Translations under genes and position numbers: made by a program
Source of the DNA: an uncultured Tenacibaculum sp.
GTDB taxonomy: Bacteria; Bacteroidota; Bacteroidia; Flavobacteriales; Flavobacteriaceae
Assembly: GCF_947495995.1 (NCBI RefSeq)
Contig: NZ_CANMAX010000004.1
Location: 186,001 to 250,000 of the forward strand
Direction: 5' to 3'
Length of the DNA stretch: 64,000 bases
Shown here: positions 7,501-14,131 of the stretch, piece by piece
How the letters are laid out: every line of letters begins with the position of its first letter
How positions within the stretch are numbered: the first letter of the stretch is position 1
Notes under the pieces: generated by a model
The model's database searches: none
Told to the model about the DNA's origin: nothing
The model's input: the letters and a program-made list of their open reading frames with translations, nothing else

Positions 7501-8274
7501 TTATTTGATTCCCATTAACTCTTGAAATTCTTTCTTGTAACCTTTACTAACTCTAAATGTAGTTTTTACGTCAGCAATTTTCACGTCAGTTTCACCATAA
7601 TTAGAAACGATTATTTCTTCGATAAATTCAGAGTTGATTATTGTAGATCTATGAATTCTCATAAACTTAGGAGAATTAAGTCTACGTATTAAACTCGATA
7701 GCGATTCACGAAGTAAATGCATTCTATTGTCAGTAGTAAATATTTCAACATAATAACCCGAAGCAGAAATGTGTTTAATTGTATCTGTTTCTATAAAAAG
7801 AATTTTATTTCCAGTTTTAACGCTAATCTTTTTTTGCTCTGTAGCTTCTTTTTGCTGAATTATATTAAGTATGTCTGCTATACTTGTTTGAATGTTCAGT
7901 AAGTCGTCTTTTTTCTTATGAGCAATAATATTGTTAATACATTGATAAAACCTATTATCGCTAAATGGTTTTAACAAGTAATCAAAAGCAAGGTAATCGA
8001 AAGCTTTATGGGCAAAATCATTACGTTCAGTAATAAAAACAAATAGAGGTTTACTATCTTTTGAGACTCCATCTATAATATCAAATCCTGTAATGTCTTC
8101 TAATTCAATGTCTAAAAAAACCACGTCAGGTTTTAAAAAGTTTATATGATCTATAGCTTCTGTACCATTAGATAAACTACCAACATTTTGAAAAGAATTA
8201 AAATTGTTTAGTAATTTTTCTATTCTAGTTCTAGCAACTTTTTGATTATCAACTATAATGTATTTCAAATTCAT
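7501..8274 (-). CDS. LytTR-family response regulator
   Basis: From ATG 8274 the protein has 257 residues (MNLKYIIVDNQKVARTRIEKLL). The receiver domain covers about 1-120, with the phospho-acceptor Asp in VVFLDIELED and the KPF motif; the LytTR DNA-binding domain covers about 155-255. A longer frame opens at 8382, but the added 36 residues are not receiver-like, and a -7-like box TACTTTCG on the minus strand (8308-8315) would lie inside them. No histidine kinase is adjacent. The gene is divergent from susC, and 21-bp-spaced direct repeats typical of LytTR operators lie between the two, so it probably controls the susCD genes. Confidence 0.85.
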   Translation of the reverse strand: MNLKYIIVDNQKVARTRIEKLLNNFNSFQNVGSLSNGTEAIDHINFLKPDVVFLDIELEDITGFDIIDGVSKDSKPLFVFITERNDFAHKAFDYLAFDYLLKPFSDNRFYQCINNIIAHKKKDDLLNIQTSIADILNIIQQKEATEQKKISVKTGNKILFIETDTIKHISASGYYVEIFTTDNRMHLLRESLSSLIRRLNSPKFMRIHRSTIINSEFIEEIIVSNYGETDVKIADVKTTFRVSKGYKKEFQELMGIK

Positions 8275-8307
8275 AATGTCTTTATAATTATTGAGTTGAT
8301 CGGGCGA

Positions 8308-8315
8308 CGAAAGTA
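8308..8315 (-). promoter_or_regulatory. Candidate -7 box TACTTTCG for the LytTR gene
   Basis: On the minus strand the sequence reads TACTTTCG, one mismatch from TAnnTTTG, 33 bp before ATG 8274. It supports the shorter start of the LytTR gene. Confidence 0.4.
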
Positions 8316-8411
8316 TAAAAGTAAATGCTTTTTTTAGTAAAATATTATGTTCTTTAACATGGTTATAACTAGAATTTAACATTTGAGTTTTTTATCACTT
8401 AAAAACGACTA

Positions 8412-8443
8412 CTTACATCAAAAAAAGGGCGCTTTACTTCAAA
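8412..8443 (+). promoter_or_regulatory. Direct repeats CTTACATCAAA / TTTACTTCAAA (putative LytTR operator)
   Basis: CTTACATCAAA (8412-8422) and TTTACTTCAAA (8433-8443) start exactly 21 bp apart, two helical turns, which is the layout LytTR regulators bind. The exact 11-mer CTTACATCAAA recurs at 13187. The second repeat ends 28 bp before a -7-like box TAAATTTA (8471-8478). Confidence 0.6.
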
Positions 8444-8470
8444 AGGATTTTAACAAAGATAGATTGGGAA

Positions 8471-8478
8471 TAAATTTA
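8471..8478 (+). promoter_or_regulatory. Candidate -7 box TAAATTTA for susC
   Basis: TAAATTTA differs from TAnnTTTG at one position and ends 30 bp before the susC ATG. It has no -33 TTG, as expected for an activator-dependent promoter; the direct repeats occupy about -70 to -39. Confidence 0.45.
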
Positions 8479-8508: not shown

Positions 8509-11505
8509 ATGAAATTTCGTTTTAAAAATGCAATGTACTTGCTATTGTTTTTGAGCGTTATCTTTAAAGTAAACGCACAAGACAAAACAGTAAGTGGTGT
8601 TGTATCAGATGATGTTGGCCCACTACCAGGTGTTAACGTAATTATTAAAAACACTTCTCGTGGTACTGAAACAGACGGAGATGGAAGATATTCAATCAAA
8701 ACTAAGCCAGGTGAGGTTCTAGTGTTTAGTTTCGTTGGAATGCAAACTGAAGAAAGAAAAGTTGGTGTTTCAAATAAAATTGATGTTACTTTAAAGAGTG
8801 ACCAAATTTTAGAAGAGATTGTAGTTATCGGATATGGTTCTGCTAAAAAAGTAGGTTCTGTAGTTGGTGCGATATCAAGTGTTTCTAGCGAAGTTATTCA
8901 AGATAAGCCATCTGCAAACGTAATGGATGGATTACAAGGTAGAGTACCAGGTTTACAAGTTTTAACTTCTTCTGGTGAGCCTTCTGCTACTCCTACATTC
9001 AGACTTCACGGTACTGGATCTTTAAGTGGAGGTTCTACTCCTTTAGTAGTATTAGACGGAGTTCCTGTTAATTCATCTACATTAACGTCTTTAAACTCAA
9101 ATGATTTTGAAAGTGTTACTGTATTAAAAGATGCATCTGCTACTTCTATCTACGGATCGAGAGCTGCAAACGGTGTAATCTACATTACTTCTAAGAAAGG
9201 TAGAATTAACACTGATCCTAAAGTAACTATCAGAACTCAGTATAGTATTTCTAACTTAGCGAATACAGATTTCTTCGAAAATGTATTAAACAGTAGACAA
9301 TTAGCAGATTTCCAAGTTGAAACTGGTTTCAGAACTAGAGCTAATGCTGATCAATTATTATTAGATAATCCTAATGATACAAAATGGTATCAAGTATACT
9401 ATAAAGAAAATGTTGGTTTAACTCAGAACGATATCTCTATTTCTGGAGGTGGTGAGAAAACTACATACTATATTTCTGCAAGTCAGACTAATCAAGAAGG
9501 TATTGCTTACCAATCAGATTTCGAAAGATATACTTTCAGAACTAACTTAGACTCTAAAGTTAAAGATTGGTTACGTGTTGGTGTAAATTTATCTTTAGGA
9601 TATGACGAAAGAGAGTTAAATCCTTCAGGATCTAACAGTACAAACAGAGGTTTAGCTTGGTTAGCACAACCTTGGTTCTCACCAGTTGATGAGAATGGAG
9701 TACGTTTCGATAGAATTCCAGGATGGGGTAGATTTCACCCAGCATATAGAGAAGAAAAATTCCAAAATGATGCTGAAAGAATTCAGTTAAACCCATCTGG
9801 TTATGTACAGGTTGAGCCATTCAAAAACTTAAAGATTAAAACTCAAGCAGGTTTAGACTTCTTCGATTTTACTCAAAATAATGTAAGACTTCCTTCTTTC
9901 ATTGGAAGTTTAGGAAATGGATCAATTTCAAGACGTACTGATAGATCTACAACATTAACAGTTACGAATACTGCAGAATACAAATTTAAAATCAACGATT
10001 CTAACAGCTTCACAGCTTTAGTTGGTCACGAGATTTTAGATAACAACTTTAGATCTTTTGGAGCTAGCTCTAATGGATTAACTGATGATCGTTTAATAGA
10101 GTTAGACTTAGGTCCAGATAACAGAGATGTATTTGAAGATAACTCTAGTTTTGTATTTGAATCTTACTTTGGTAGATTAGAATATGATTATAACAATAAG
10201 TATTTCTTCGATTTTTCTGTAAGACAAGATGGATCTTCTAGATTTGGAGCAAACAACAGAAGTGCAACATTCTGGTCTGTTGGAGGTTTATGGAAAATCA
10301 AAAAAGAAAACTTCTTAGATAATGTTAATTGGTTAAACGATTTATCTTTAAGAGGTAGTTACGGTACAAGTGGTAACGCTGGTAACACAGATGTTGATTT
10401 AGCTAACATCGGTCAGTCTATCGCTATCAACTTCCAGTCTATTGCAACTGCAGGAGCAAATCAATATAATGGAGGTACAGGTTTCCAAATTGGAAATCCA
10501 GGTAACCCTAACTTAACTTGGGAAGAGCAATCAAAATTATCTGTTGGTTTTTCTGCTGAATTATTTAATAGAGTTCGTTTAGGAGTAGATTACTATAACA
10601 GAAAGACTAGCGCGATGTTATTAGATGTGCCAATCGGATTAACTACTGGTGTTGAAGATATCAGAAGTAACGTTGGTGAATTAACTAACCAAGGTGTTGA
10701 TGTTAACTTAAGTTTTGATTTACTTTCTGGAGAAGATTTCTACTTCAGTCCTTACATCAACATTAACTACAACCAAGAAAGAGTAACTGAATTATTCGAC
10801 GGTAACGATTTCTGGATTATTCCAAATACAGGAGTTGCTTGGGCTGTTGGTCAACCTGTAACATATTTCTATCCAATCCATGCTGGAGTTAACCCACAAA
10901 CTGGTTTATCTGAATGGTATTTACCAAATGCAGATCCAAGTCAAGTTGTTAACCCTAACACAGATAGAAACAATGTAACTTCTAATTTTAATACAGCTGC
11001 TTTACAACAAAGTACTGGTATTAAGAGAAATGCACCAATCAATGGAGGTTTCGGATTCTCTTCTGCATACAAAGGATTCTCTTTACAAGCTGATTTCGCT
11101 TTTTCTAGTGGAAAATACTTAATCAACAACGATAGATTCTTCTCAGAAAATCCAAATGTATTCGCTGGATTTAACCAATCTACAAGAGTATTAGATTACT
11201 GGAAACAACCAGGAGATGTAACTACTTTCCCAAGATTTGATGGACCTAACTTTACACAATTTGATTCTACTTTAATTGAAGATGCATCTTTCATCAGATT
11301 AAAGAACATCATTTTAGCTTATAACGTACCAAGTGATATCGTTAAGCGTGTTGGATTAGAGAATGTAAGATTATTTACAGTAGGAAGAAATTTATTAACA
11401 TTTACAGACTATTTAGGTGTTGATCCAGAAGTGGATTCTAACATTGCATTAGGTTCTAACCCTAATACTAAGCAAGTATCTTTTGGTCTAGAAGTTAAAT
11501 TTTAA
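8509..11505 (+). CDS. SusC/RagA family TonB-linked outer-membrane protein
   Basis: The protein has 998 residues. A signal peptide (about 1-24, ending KVNAQ) is followed by a carboxypeptidase-regulatory-like domain (about 26-100, VSGVVSDDVGPLPGVNVIIK), the SusC plug (EEIVVIGYGSAKK...; LDGVPVNS; SIYGSRAANGVIYITSKKG) and a 22-strand-type barrel to the C-terminus. There is no STN domain, so it is not a classical FecA-type transducer. With the SusD gene 10 bp downstream it forms a nutrient-importing pedal-bin complex. No glycosidase, peptidase or sulfatase is linked, so the substrate cannot be named. Codon use is more GC-rich and regular than that of its neighbours, suggesting high expression. A LytTR regulator is divergent. 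Confidence 0.95.
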   Translation: MKFRFKNAMYLLLFLSVIFKVNAQDKTVSGVVSDDVGPLPGVNVIIKNTSRGTETDGDGRYSIKTKPGEVLVFSFVGMQTEERKVGVSNKIDVTLKSDQILEEIVVIGYGSAKKVGSVVGAISSVSSEVIQDKPSANVMDGLQGRVPGLQVLTSSGEPSATPTFRLHGTGSLSGGSTPLVVLDGVPVNSSTLTSLNSNDFESVTVLKDASATSIYGSRAANGVIYITSKKGRINTDPKVTIRTQYSISNLANTDFFENVLNSRQLADFQVETGFRTRANADQLLLDNPNDTKWYQVYYKENVGLTQNDISISGGGEKTTYYISASQTNQEGIAYQSDFERYTFRTNLDSKVKDWLRVGVNLSLGYDERELNPSGSNSTNRGLAWLAQPWFSPVDENGVRFDRIPGWGRFHPAYREEKFQNDAERIQLNPSGYVQVEPFKNLKIKTQAGLDFFDFTQNNVRLPSFIGSLGNGSISRRTDRSTTLTVTNTAEYKFKINDSNSFTALVGHEILDNNFRSFGASSNGLTDDRLIELDLGPDNRDVFEDNSSFVFESYFGRLEYDYNNKYFFDFSVRQDGSSRFGANNRSATFWSVGGLWKIKKENFLDNVNWLNDLSLRGSYGTSGNAGNTDVDLANIGQSIAINFQSIATAGANQYNGGTGFQIGNPGNPNLTWEEQSKLSVGFSAELFNRVRLGVDYYNRKTSAMLLDVPIGLTTGVEDIRSNVGELTNQGVDVNLSFDLLSGEDFYFSPYININYNQERVTELFDGNDFWIIPNTGVAWAVGQPVTYFYPIHAGVNPQTGLSEWYLPNADPSQVVNPNTDRNNVTSNFNTAALQQSTGIKRNAPINGGFGFSSAYKGFSLQADFAFSSGKYLINNDRFFSENPNVFAGFNQSTRVLDYWKQPGDVTTFPRFDGPNFTQFDSTLIEDASFIRLKNIILAYNVPSDIVKRVGLENVRLFTVGRNLLTFTDYLGVDPEVDSNIALGSNPNTKQVSFGLEVKF

Positions 11506-11515
11506 TTAGAAAACA

Positions 11516-13009
11516 ATGAAATTCAATAAAATCATAATAAACTCTTTAATAGTTTTAGGTCTAGGATTATCATCTTGTGATGATTTAGAAAGATTTCCTA
11601 CAGACGAAATTTCTATTGATGATAGTTTTGAATCAATTAACGATGCGCGTGCCTGGAATAATGGTATGTATGCGAACTTAAGAGCTAACGTATATGGTAA
11701 CAGAATGTTCACTCAAGATGTTCAAGCTGACCAAGTAAATGCTTCTTTAACATACGGAAATAGAAATGGAGCACCTCATAGATGGTTACCATTTTTAGCT
11801 GATGCAGGAATAATCGAAGATTATTGGTTTGGTGCTTACCAAGGAATTGCTGATATTAACTTAGCAATCGAAAATTTTGATAACATAGAAACTGCTGACG
11901 CTACTGAAGCAGGTGAGTTAAATGCATTCAAAGGAGAAGCACATTTAGCAAGAGCATATTACTACCATAGATTAGTTGTACGTTATGCTAAAATGTATGA
12001 TCCAGCTTCTGCTGCTACTGATTTAGGTGTGCCTTTAGTACTTCAATTTGATTTAACTGAAAAGCCATCAAGAAATACAGTTGAAGAAGTATACACTCAA
12101 ATTTTAAATGATATTGCTGAGGCTAAAACTTTATTAGCAGGTGTTAATGGAGCTTCAGGAGCAATCAAATTTAATATTGATGTAGCAAAAGCTTTAGAAG
12201 CAAGAGTTTTATTTTACAAGCAAGATTATGCTAACGCAAAAACTGTTGCAGAAGAATTAATTAATAGTGGAAACTATCCTTTAATTACTACTGAAGCACA
12301 ATTAAGAAACATGTGGACAAATGACTTCCACCAAGAAGTAATTTCTAGTCTTTTTGTTTCTGCTCCAAATGAATTAGGTAGAGCAAATAACATCTACTTA
12401 GGGTTAATCGCAGCTACAGGTAACTATGCACCAGATTTTATTCCATCTCAATGGGTTGTTGATGCATACGAAGATGCAGATTTCAGAAAAAACATTTATT
12501 TTGAGCAAAAAGATGTTGAGCAAGAAAATATTGTATACCCAGATATCTGGTTAGTAAACAAGTATCCAGGAAACCCAGCTTTATTTACAGGGGCAAATTC
12601 AAACTTCCAACATGCACCAATCTTATTCAGAATTGCTGAAATGTATTTAATTTCTGCTGAATCTGATTTAAATGGAGGTTTAGGAGATCCTTTAGTAAGA
12701 TTAAATCAATTAAGACAAGCTCGTAATGCTTCTATGTTAACTGGTTTATCAGGTACAGGTTTACAGGATGCTGTAAGAATGGAAAGATTTAGAGAGTTAG
12801 CTTTCGAAGGATTCAGATTAGATGACTTAAGAAGATGGAATTTAGGAATCACAAGAAGAGATCCTCAAAATACTACGTTGTTACAAACAGGTACTCAGTT
12901 TGATCAATTAACTCAACCAGCAGGAGCTGATAAATTCACTTGGGGAATTCCTACAAGAGATTTAACAGTTAATCCTAACTTAAGAGATCAACAAAATCCA
13001 GGTTGGTAA
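11516..13009 (+). CDS. RagB/SusD family nutrient-uptake lipoprotein
   Basis: The protein has 497 residues. A lipoprotein signal (LGLGLSSCDDLE) puts the lipidated Cys at 21. The SusD fold is seen in the helical N-terminal part (INDARAWNNGMYANLRA; FKGEAHLARAYYYHRLV, a TPR-like segment) and in the typical C-terminal blocks LFRIAEMYLISAE and RFRELAFEGFRLDDLRRW. It is the surface lid that binds the substrate imported by the SusC protein directly upstream (10-bp gap, same operon). A terminator follows at 13101. The substrate is unknown. Confidence 0.95.
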   Translation: MKFNKIIINSLIVLGLGLSSCDDLERFPTDEISIDDSFESINDARAWNNGMYANLRANVYGNRMFTQDVQADQVNASLTYGNRNGAPHRWLPFLADAGIIEDYWFGAYQGIADINLAIENFDNIETADATEAGELNAFKGEAHLARAYYYHRLVVRYAKMYDPASAATDLGVPLVLQFDLTEKPSRNTVEEVYTQILNDIAEAKTLLAGVNGASGAIKFNIDVAKALEARVLFYKQDYANAKTVAEELINSGNYPLITTEAQLRNMWTNDFHQEVISSLFVSAPNELGRANNIYLGLIAATGNYAPDFIPSQWVVDAYEDADFRKNIYFEQKDVEQENIVYPDIWLVNKYPGNPALFTGANSNFQHAPILFRIAEMYLISAESDLNGGLGDPLVRLNQLRQARNASMLTGLSGTGLQDAVRMERFRELAFEGFRLDDLRRWNLGITRRDPQNTTLLQTGTQFDQLTQPAGADKFTWGIPTRDLTVNPNLRDQQNPGW

Positions 13010-13100
13010 TCCCAATCTTTTAATAATCCCCAAAAAGAACCCAATCGGGATACTAATGTGAAGTTAAATTTGTTTAATAAATTTTAGTATTAGTTAGTAA

Positions 13101-13130
13101 AAAGGCTGTCAATTTTTGACAGCCTTTTTT
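13101..13130 (+). terminator. Intrinsic terminator of the susCD operon
   Basis: The stem AAAGGCTGTCAA (13101-13112) pairs with TTGACAGCCTTT (13116-13127) around TTT, followed by a T run. It lies 91 bp after the susD stop codon. Confidence 0.85.
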
Positions 13131-13145
13131 ATGTGTTTAAATCAG

Positions 13146-13197
13146 TTTAATTCAAAGTTGACACGTTTAATTCAAAATTCAAGCAGCTTACATCAAA
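13146..13197 (+). promoter_or_regulatory. Three direct repeats TTTAATTCAAA / TTTAATTCAAA / CTTACATCAAA (putative LytTR operator)
   Basis: The repeats lie at 13146-13156, 13166-13176 and 13187-13197, with start-to-start spacing of 20 and 21 bp. The last is identical to the 8412 repeat in front of susC and also ends 28 bp before a -7 box. The placement after the susCD terminator suggests it drives a separate transcript. Confidence 0.6.
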
Positions 13198-13224
13198 GTT
13201 ACTTTAGGGTGCTTGAAAACGCAG

Positions 13225-13232
13225 TATTTTTG
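13225..13232 (+). promoter_or_regulatory. -7 box TATTTTTG of the small-RNA candidate
   Basis: This is an exact TAnnTTTG match. It lies 28 bp after the last LytTR-type repeat and has no -33 TTG, the same layout as upstream of susC. The predicted start is near 13236. Confidence 0.5.
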
Positions 13233-13235
13233 AGT

Positions 13236-13316
13236 AAGCAACTATAAATCATTGTATAGTTGTTTGAATTAATCAATCAAATAAGTCAAGGAGTTGTTAA
13301 CCTTGACTTTTTTTAT
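13236..13316 (+). ncRNA. Candidate small RNA between susD and pyrF
   Basis: The predicted transcript of about 75-80 nt starts just after the -7 box at 13225. It opens with a hairpin (CAACTATA 13239-13246 pairing TATAGTTG 13255-13262, extendable by a G-U and two A-U pairs), then has a single-stranded AU-rich stretch, and ends in an intrinsic terminator (AAGTCAAGG 13283-13291 pairing CCTTGACTT 13301-13309, then a T run). It contains no convincing reading frame. It would be co-regulated with susCD if the repeats bind the LytTR protein. This is inference from the promoter, structure and terminator only. Confidence 0.5.
13283..13316 (+). terminator. Intrinsic terminator after the small-RNA candidate
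   Basis: A 9-bp stem AAGTCAAGG / CCTTGACTT with a 9-nt loop is followed by about seven T. On the minus strand the pairing also exists, but it has only a short T run for pyrF. Confidence 0.75.
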
Positions 13317-13318
13317 TT

Positions 13319-14131
13319 TTAGTTGAGTATAGTACTCATTTGTTCTTGTAATTCTTTTGCTTTTTCCGCCGCAGCTTTAGCAAAGTTTTCGTCATTTCCA
13401 GCGTAGATAATTCCTCTAGAAGAATTTATTAATAAGCCAACAGAAGAATTCATTCCGTATTTACAAACATCTTGTAAATTACCTCCCTGAGCTCCTACAC
13501 CTGGAACTAATAAAAAACTATCAGGAATAATTTGACGAATATCTTTTAAATATTCTGCTTTAGTAGCACCAACTACATACATCAGATTCTGAGAGTTTTT
13601 CCATGTTTTAGATGTTTCTAAGACATGTTTATAGACTTCTTTATGGTCTATTTTCTGTGTTTGAAAATCAAAAGCACCAGTATTTGAAGTTAATGCTAAC
13701 ACAATAGTATGCTTGTCTTCAAAAGCTAAAAATGGTTCAACAGAATCTTTTCCCATATATGGAGCTACAGTTACAGAGTCAAAAGATAAATCTTCGAAAA
13801 AAGCTTTAGCGTACATTGTAGAAGTATTTCCAATATCTCCTCTTTTAGCATCAGCAATTGTAAAAATATTAGGATGATTCTCGTTAATATAATTGATAGT
13901 TTTTTCAAGAGATTTCCATCCTTTTATACCATAAGCTTCATAAAAAGCTGTATTTGGTTTATATGCGACACAAAGATGATGAGTTGCGTCTATAATAGCT
14001 TTGTTAAATTCAAAAATAGGATCTTCTAATTCTAATAAATGTTTAGGGATTTTATTTAAATCTACATCTAATCCAATGCATAGAAACGATTTTTTTTGTT
14101 GAATTTCAGCGACTAGTTGTTCAGTTGTCAT
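13319..14131 (-). CDS. pyrF: Orotidine 5'-phosphate decarboxylase
   Basis: The protein has 270 residues. The signature [11 protein letters not shown] (residues 94-104) contains the catalytic Lys96 and Asp99 pair; FLCIGLDVD and [10 protein letters not shown] (Lys58) are also typical. Length and motifs place it in the longer PyrF type common in Bacteroidota and Actinobacteria. It catalyses OMP to UMP, the last step of pyrimidine synthesis, in the cytoplasm. It is a single gene, divergent from the permease at 14196, and no other pyr genes are close. Confidence 0.95.

Follow-up and report, generated by a model that had tools for sequence, protein, structure and literature searches.

SusCD importers determine the diet of Bacteroidota. 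In Escherichia coli, the small RNAs (sRNAs) MicA, RybB and OmrA/B are induced by stress or by a regulator, use Hfq-dependent short seeds and block initiation on porin and receptor mRNAs; to our knowledge, none of them is encoded within the locus of a competing importer. RNA control of SusC itself has a precedent in gut Bacteroides, the FopS sRNAs (PMC11697453). In Bacteroides thetaiotaomicron these RNAs, present in 14 copies with canonical promoters and induced by bile salts, bind through a short 5' seed near the start codons of susC-type genes and block translation; the RRM protein RbpB is their partner and counters them, and FopS-10 blocks translation of susC-type mRNAs in vitro (PMC11697453). 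The targets of GibS in B. thetaiotaomicron are a glycoside hydrolase and a hypothetical protein rather than susC, and DonS of Bacteroides fragilis is divergently encoded to its own PUL and acts on that PUL (PMC11697453). Rfp18 of Flavobacterium psychrophilum affects metalloprotease mRNAs (PMC9723704).

Here we describe a locus of an uncultured Tenacibaculum sp., within a window of 64,000 nucleotides (the whole stretch of DNA analysed). We consider it likely that this locus encodes a trans-acting antisense sRNA that is co-induced by a LytTR regulator with a RagAB-like SusCD and blocks translation of a second SusCD. By prediction, the RNA is FopS-like in effect: it is short and pairs at a susC start codon, at positions −26 to +4. 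It differs from FopS in its pairing of ~30 nt and as a single LytTR-type copy beside a SusCD with shared operators. The multicopy character of FopS is not reproduced, the genome carrying one such sRNA and a dissimilar one linked to lipA, and neither is the FopS partner, as a search for RRM_1 (PF00076) found no match in this genome and gave one in a control Bacteroides genome. GibS is likewise inducible and acts, in a carbohydrate context, on regions of translation initiation, but operators linked to SusCD are not described for it (PMC11697453). DonS and similar PUL-linked RNAs resemble the present element as sRNA genes beside a SusCD locus that lower expression of a SusCD system, whereas the predicted target here lies on another contig (C1, with the sRNA on C4). 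Rfp18 is also a conserved regulatory sRNA of the same bacterial family, but no link to SusC has been reported for it (PMC9723704). Rfam identified only a tmRNA in the window and no family for the sRNA loci. We therefore class the element apart within SusC-directed sRNA control, because it is not multicopy, has neither an RRM_1 protein in its genome nor an Rfam match, and DonS adjoins its own target. What is new relative to known control of this kind is that the RNA is encoded in, and by inference co-regulated with, a competing importer.

Table 1 Features of the SusCD locus and of the predicted sRNA gene (window coordinates)
Feature	Position	Strand	Remark
LytTR response regulator (Response_reg + LytTR)	7501..8382	-	inferred activator
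susC-promoter operator pair CTTACATCAAA-N10-TTTACTTCAAA	8412..8443	+	sites 8412-8422 and 8433-8443
susC −7 box TAAATTTA	8471..8478	+	27 nt after operator
Host susC, RagA-like TonB-dependent importer	8509..11505	+	
Host susD	11516..13009	+	
susCD operon terminator	13099..13129	+	between susD and sRNA promoter
Upstream (extra, third) operator repeat TTTAATTCAAA	13146..13156	+	read from sequence; absent in some relatives
Operator site A TTTAATTCAAA	13166..13176	+	with site B, exact pair that occurs twice in 4.54 Mb
Operator site B CTTACATCAAA	13187..13197	+	identical to 8412-8422
−7 box TATTTTTG (TAnnTTTG)	13225..13232	+	27 nt after site B
Predicted sRNA, ~80 nt	13236..13315	+	start inferred
5' hairpin	13235..13266	+	part of antisense seed in loop and 3' arm
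Antisense seed TCATTGTATAGTTGTTTGAATTAATCAATC	13249..13278	+	complementary to −26..+4 of second susC (G000:C1)
Intrinsic terminator AAGTCAAGG-9nt-CCTTGACTT + T run	13283..13314	+	

The element is located between susD and pyrF. The closest solved structure to the host SusC is RagA of P. gingivalis (E 1.4e-189, compared with 1.6e-105 for the next SusC), which suggests that the host SusCD is an oligopeptide importer; the substrate is thus inferred. Three 11-bp repeats, spaced at pitches of 20 and then 21 bp, precede the element, two of them TTTAATTCAAA and one CTTACATCAAA, and the last ends 28 bp before an exact −7 box (a gap of 27 nt). A gap of 27 nt is likewise found in the susC promoter (8443 to 8471), whose −7 box is one letter off consensus. 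Both the repeats and the matching geometry are as the first-pass annotation had read them. A genome-wide search with YTTANWTCAAA-N10-YTTANWTCAAA returned exactly two perfect matches in 4.54 Mb, namely the susC promoter and the sRNA promoter; the sole site with one mismatch falls within a coding frame. An earlier pattern, TTNANNTCAAA, had given no match because site B starts with C.

The same architecture was observed in relatives. The operator pitch was 21 bp in all 26 sRNA-promoter loci examined, each of which had TAnnTTTG or a near form, and the gap from operator to TAnnTTTG/A was 27 nt in 24 loci and 26 nt in the other two. Most susC promoters scored likewise share this spacing. Promoter-architecture scores were 27–32, against a null best of 21.0 ± 1.5 for 170-bp pieces drawn at random from the window.

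LytTR response regulators usually bind two repeats of 9–11 nt with spacers of 11–13 nt (PMC4847170). The operators fit such a site, two direct repeats upstream of a promoter, with 11-mers at a 21-bp pitch; their 10-nt spacer is one short of the published range (PMC4847170), a figure that depends on where the site is cut. Among 166 genomes, 24 carried both the LytTR gene and the sRNA, five the LytTR gene only, three the sRNA only and 134 neither (p = 6e-21); in four to five genomes with the LytTR gene no clear sRNA is seen. From location and co-occurrence we infer that the LytTR protein binds the operators at both promoters. As there are no DNA-binding data, and the genome encodes about 40 homologues of the regulator, the sRNA and its pairing could be real while the shared operators belong to another protein. 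We regard this as unlikely, though it is the alternative that survives best: the sRNA co-occurs strictly with the adjacent LytTR gene, the operators lie within that gene's own intergenic region, and the two-repeat layout fits LytTR sites. Next to a LytTR paralogue at G000:C12 (56% identical) there is neither a susCD nor a strong sRNA match.

The predicted RNA consists of a 5' hairpin and a terminator without a usable reading frame, as had also been proposed. Hairpin and terminator together (81 nt) fold at −21.9 kcal/mol (z = −5.1), and none of 200 shuffles was as low. At the sequence level the element thus has what a trans-acting antisense sRNA gene should have, its own promoter and terminator and no frame: a −7 box, an upstream susCD terminator, its own terminator and no ORF. 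The transcript remains inferred, in the absence of RNA-seq or start-site data; a literature search found no transcriptome covering the sRNA. Over 20 relatives the 5' hairpin had a mean z of −2.8, and its stems vary among lineages yet stay paired (TTATACCAA/TTGGTGTAA, TTACATCAA/TTGATGTAA and CAACTATA/TATAGTTG). The stems were folded individually, with no formal pair count on alignment A4, in which MAFFT displaced the hairpin of three sequences.

The seed is antisense to the start codon and the 26 nt upstream of another susC (G000:C1:17751-17780). The predicted duplex between 13249-13278 and positions −26 to +4 comprises 30 continuous pairs, one of them G-U, at −41.2 kcal/mol; the next best among 93 ORF starts reached −22.4 kcal/mol, and susC1, the neighbour of the target, just −18.5 kcal/mol. 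Cofolding gave an interaction of −26.1 between sRNA and target, compared with −7.0 ± 3.0 for shuffled sRNA. Searched in the 4.54-Mb genome with up to three mismatches, the 24-nt sequence TATAGTTGTTTGAATTAATCAATC occurred only in the sRNA and, as the complement with one mismatch, at G000:C1:17741-17764. Genome-wide specificity of the seed rests on these pattern searches and the 93 local ORF starts. BLAST of the sRNA region further returned short hits across many genomes, on the strand opposite a start codon; every one was a leader of a SusC gene that starts with MKTKFNGILTLLLAL or a similar sequence. The element therefore shows the conserved, specific complementarity to the mRNA of another locus that is expected of a trans-acting antisense sRNA. 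The first-pass annotation had suggested, as an inference, that such an RNA could adjust other outer-membrane proteins; this is supported, with the start region of the second susC as target, although the regulation itself is inferred.

The target operon adjoins rpsL, rpsG and fusA and has the order susC1-susD1, susC2-susD2, a lipoprotein gene and a ribosomal-RNA methyltransferase-like gene. RagA and two other SusC homologues match the target SusC about equally well. Base pairing by itself leaves the sign of regulation undetermined, and the leader of the target shows strong conservation across the genus, so the sRNA might instead stabilize the second susC mRNA or be titrated by it as a sponge. 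This outcome is unlikely, slightly more so than control by another regulator: the pairing covers the AUG and the preceding 26 nt, the usual repressive position, and FopS is repressive at the same position on the susC BT_3983 (PMC11697453).

BLAST of 13130-13330 against 39 related genomes recovered the 3' part in five, at 78–88% identity and in each case behind the homologous susD. A covariance model built from six loci matched strongly in about 25 of the 166 Tenacibaculum-type genomes, again behind the homologous susD; the named records among them are Tenacibaculum isolates and one Polaribacter. Absence of the stretch from relatives that keep the flanking genes would have refuted the first-pass proposal, which passed this check, and the combination of repeats, hairpin and terminator recurs in relatives. 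Within the closest lineage there is almost no variation in the operators, −7 box, seed and terminator, and the spacers have diverged. Weak R1 matches in six other genomes (G111, G062, G049, G078, G052 and G175) were rejected as unrelated terminators with a similar loop.

The seed co-diverges with its target. In the lineage of G000, G087, G144 and G152, GTATAGTTGTTTGAATTAATCAAYC in the sRNA is matched by GATTGATTAATTCAAACAATTATAC in the target, and other lineages carry different variants that are likewise matched between sRNA and leader. For 27 sRNAs, the mean cognate duplex was −39.5, compared with −37.0 ± 0.58 for non-cognate permutations (0/5000 as low) and −14.3 ± 3.4 for shuffled sRNAs. 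This test and that of co-occurrence are inflated by relatedness, as kinship was not removed. The same target-leader variant is also present in some genomes without the sRNA (e.g., G156 and G050), indicating that leader conservation is not due to the LytTR-linked sRNA alone. In G003 the seed is a good match to just one of the two leaders, and no target was found in G012, whose genome is 67% complete.

A mere 3' region of susCD and pyrF, holding a terminator and a relic of an inverted susC leader without functional RNA, would account for T. ovolyticum (L262), which has the same terminator without the antisense part, and for the second copies that sit in the susD 3' UTR of six genomes without operators, but is very improbable, since conservation covers operators, −7 box, hairpin and seed but not the diverging spacers, and the seed co-diverges with its target. 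As T. ovolyticum keeps it, the terminator by itself does not point to an sRNA; G095 likewise retains the terminator and lacks the seed.

Several variants of the module were seen in relatives. The terminator (window 13283-13309; in T. ovolyticum, L262 2834-2914) has a conserved loop, AGTNNTTAA, that is retained here even in the absence of the antisense part, and similar GTCATT(A/T)A loops are also found in unrelated terminators of the genus. The six genomes with second copies (G093, G140, G070, G159, G042 and G123; L164-L169) carry this antisense-plus-terminator module directly in the 3' UTR of a tandem susD, without operators or promoter, and the 3' end of the importer mRNA may therefore serve the same purpose there as the sRNA. 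Tenacibaculum sp. M341 (L256 2381-2462) has a promoterless second copy of the sRNA body 450 bp past the first, adjoining pyrF.

Under the antisense sRNA reading, the LytTR regulator encoded beside susC would bind the paired 11-bp sites and activate the sRNA together with the RagAB-like susCD. Over ~30 nt, the sRNA would then base-pair with the second susC mRNA at its start codon and the 26 nt before it, and this pairing is predicted to occlude initiation of susC2 translation, so that the second importer would no longer be made and one importer would replace the other. Switching on one importer thus very probably turns the other off, with expression and repression both inferred. The finding bears on how one SusCD importer is picked over another. 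An importer locus that carries, under its own regulator, an RNA against the start codon of another importer would give marine Flavobacteriaceae a simple circuit for exchanging importers, found here in a genome without an RRM chaperone.

Leaders of this type are widespread. The non-coding leader of the susC genes encoding MKTKFNG (e.g., L193 12208-12290) is nearly fixed in 105 of 146 genomes, and its conservation extends well past the genomes with the LytTR-linked sRNA. A second sRNA candidate is present in the same genome, in the region between lipA and the cysteine synthase gene (G000:C13:55546-55570; about 3546 on the + strand of L249). Its features are a sigma54-type box (TTGGCAC-N5-TTG), the core GTTTTCATTGTGTAAATTATTTGAATTAG and a terminator, and the genome encodes sigma54. 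The 25-nt core is almost invariant, is present in about 100–105 of the 166 genomes and, with a single bulge, is antisense to the same susC leaders as well; the duplexes in this genome are at −32.4 and −30.1 kcal/mol. Whether the MKTKFNG leader is a genus-wide hub of RNA control on which at least two unrelated sRNA genes converge, one LytTR-driven and importer-linked and the other sigma54-type and lipA-linked, is in our view evenly balanced; if it is, importer choice would be set post-transcriptionally by rival importers and a separate global signal. The lipA-linked element was also seen in relatives (L197-L226), some of which carry two tandem copies.
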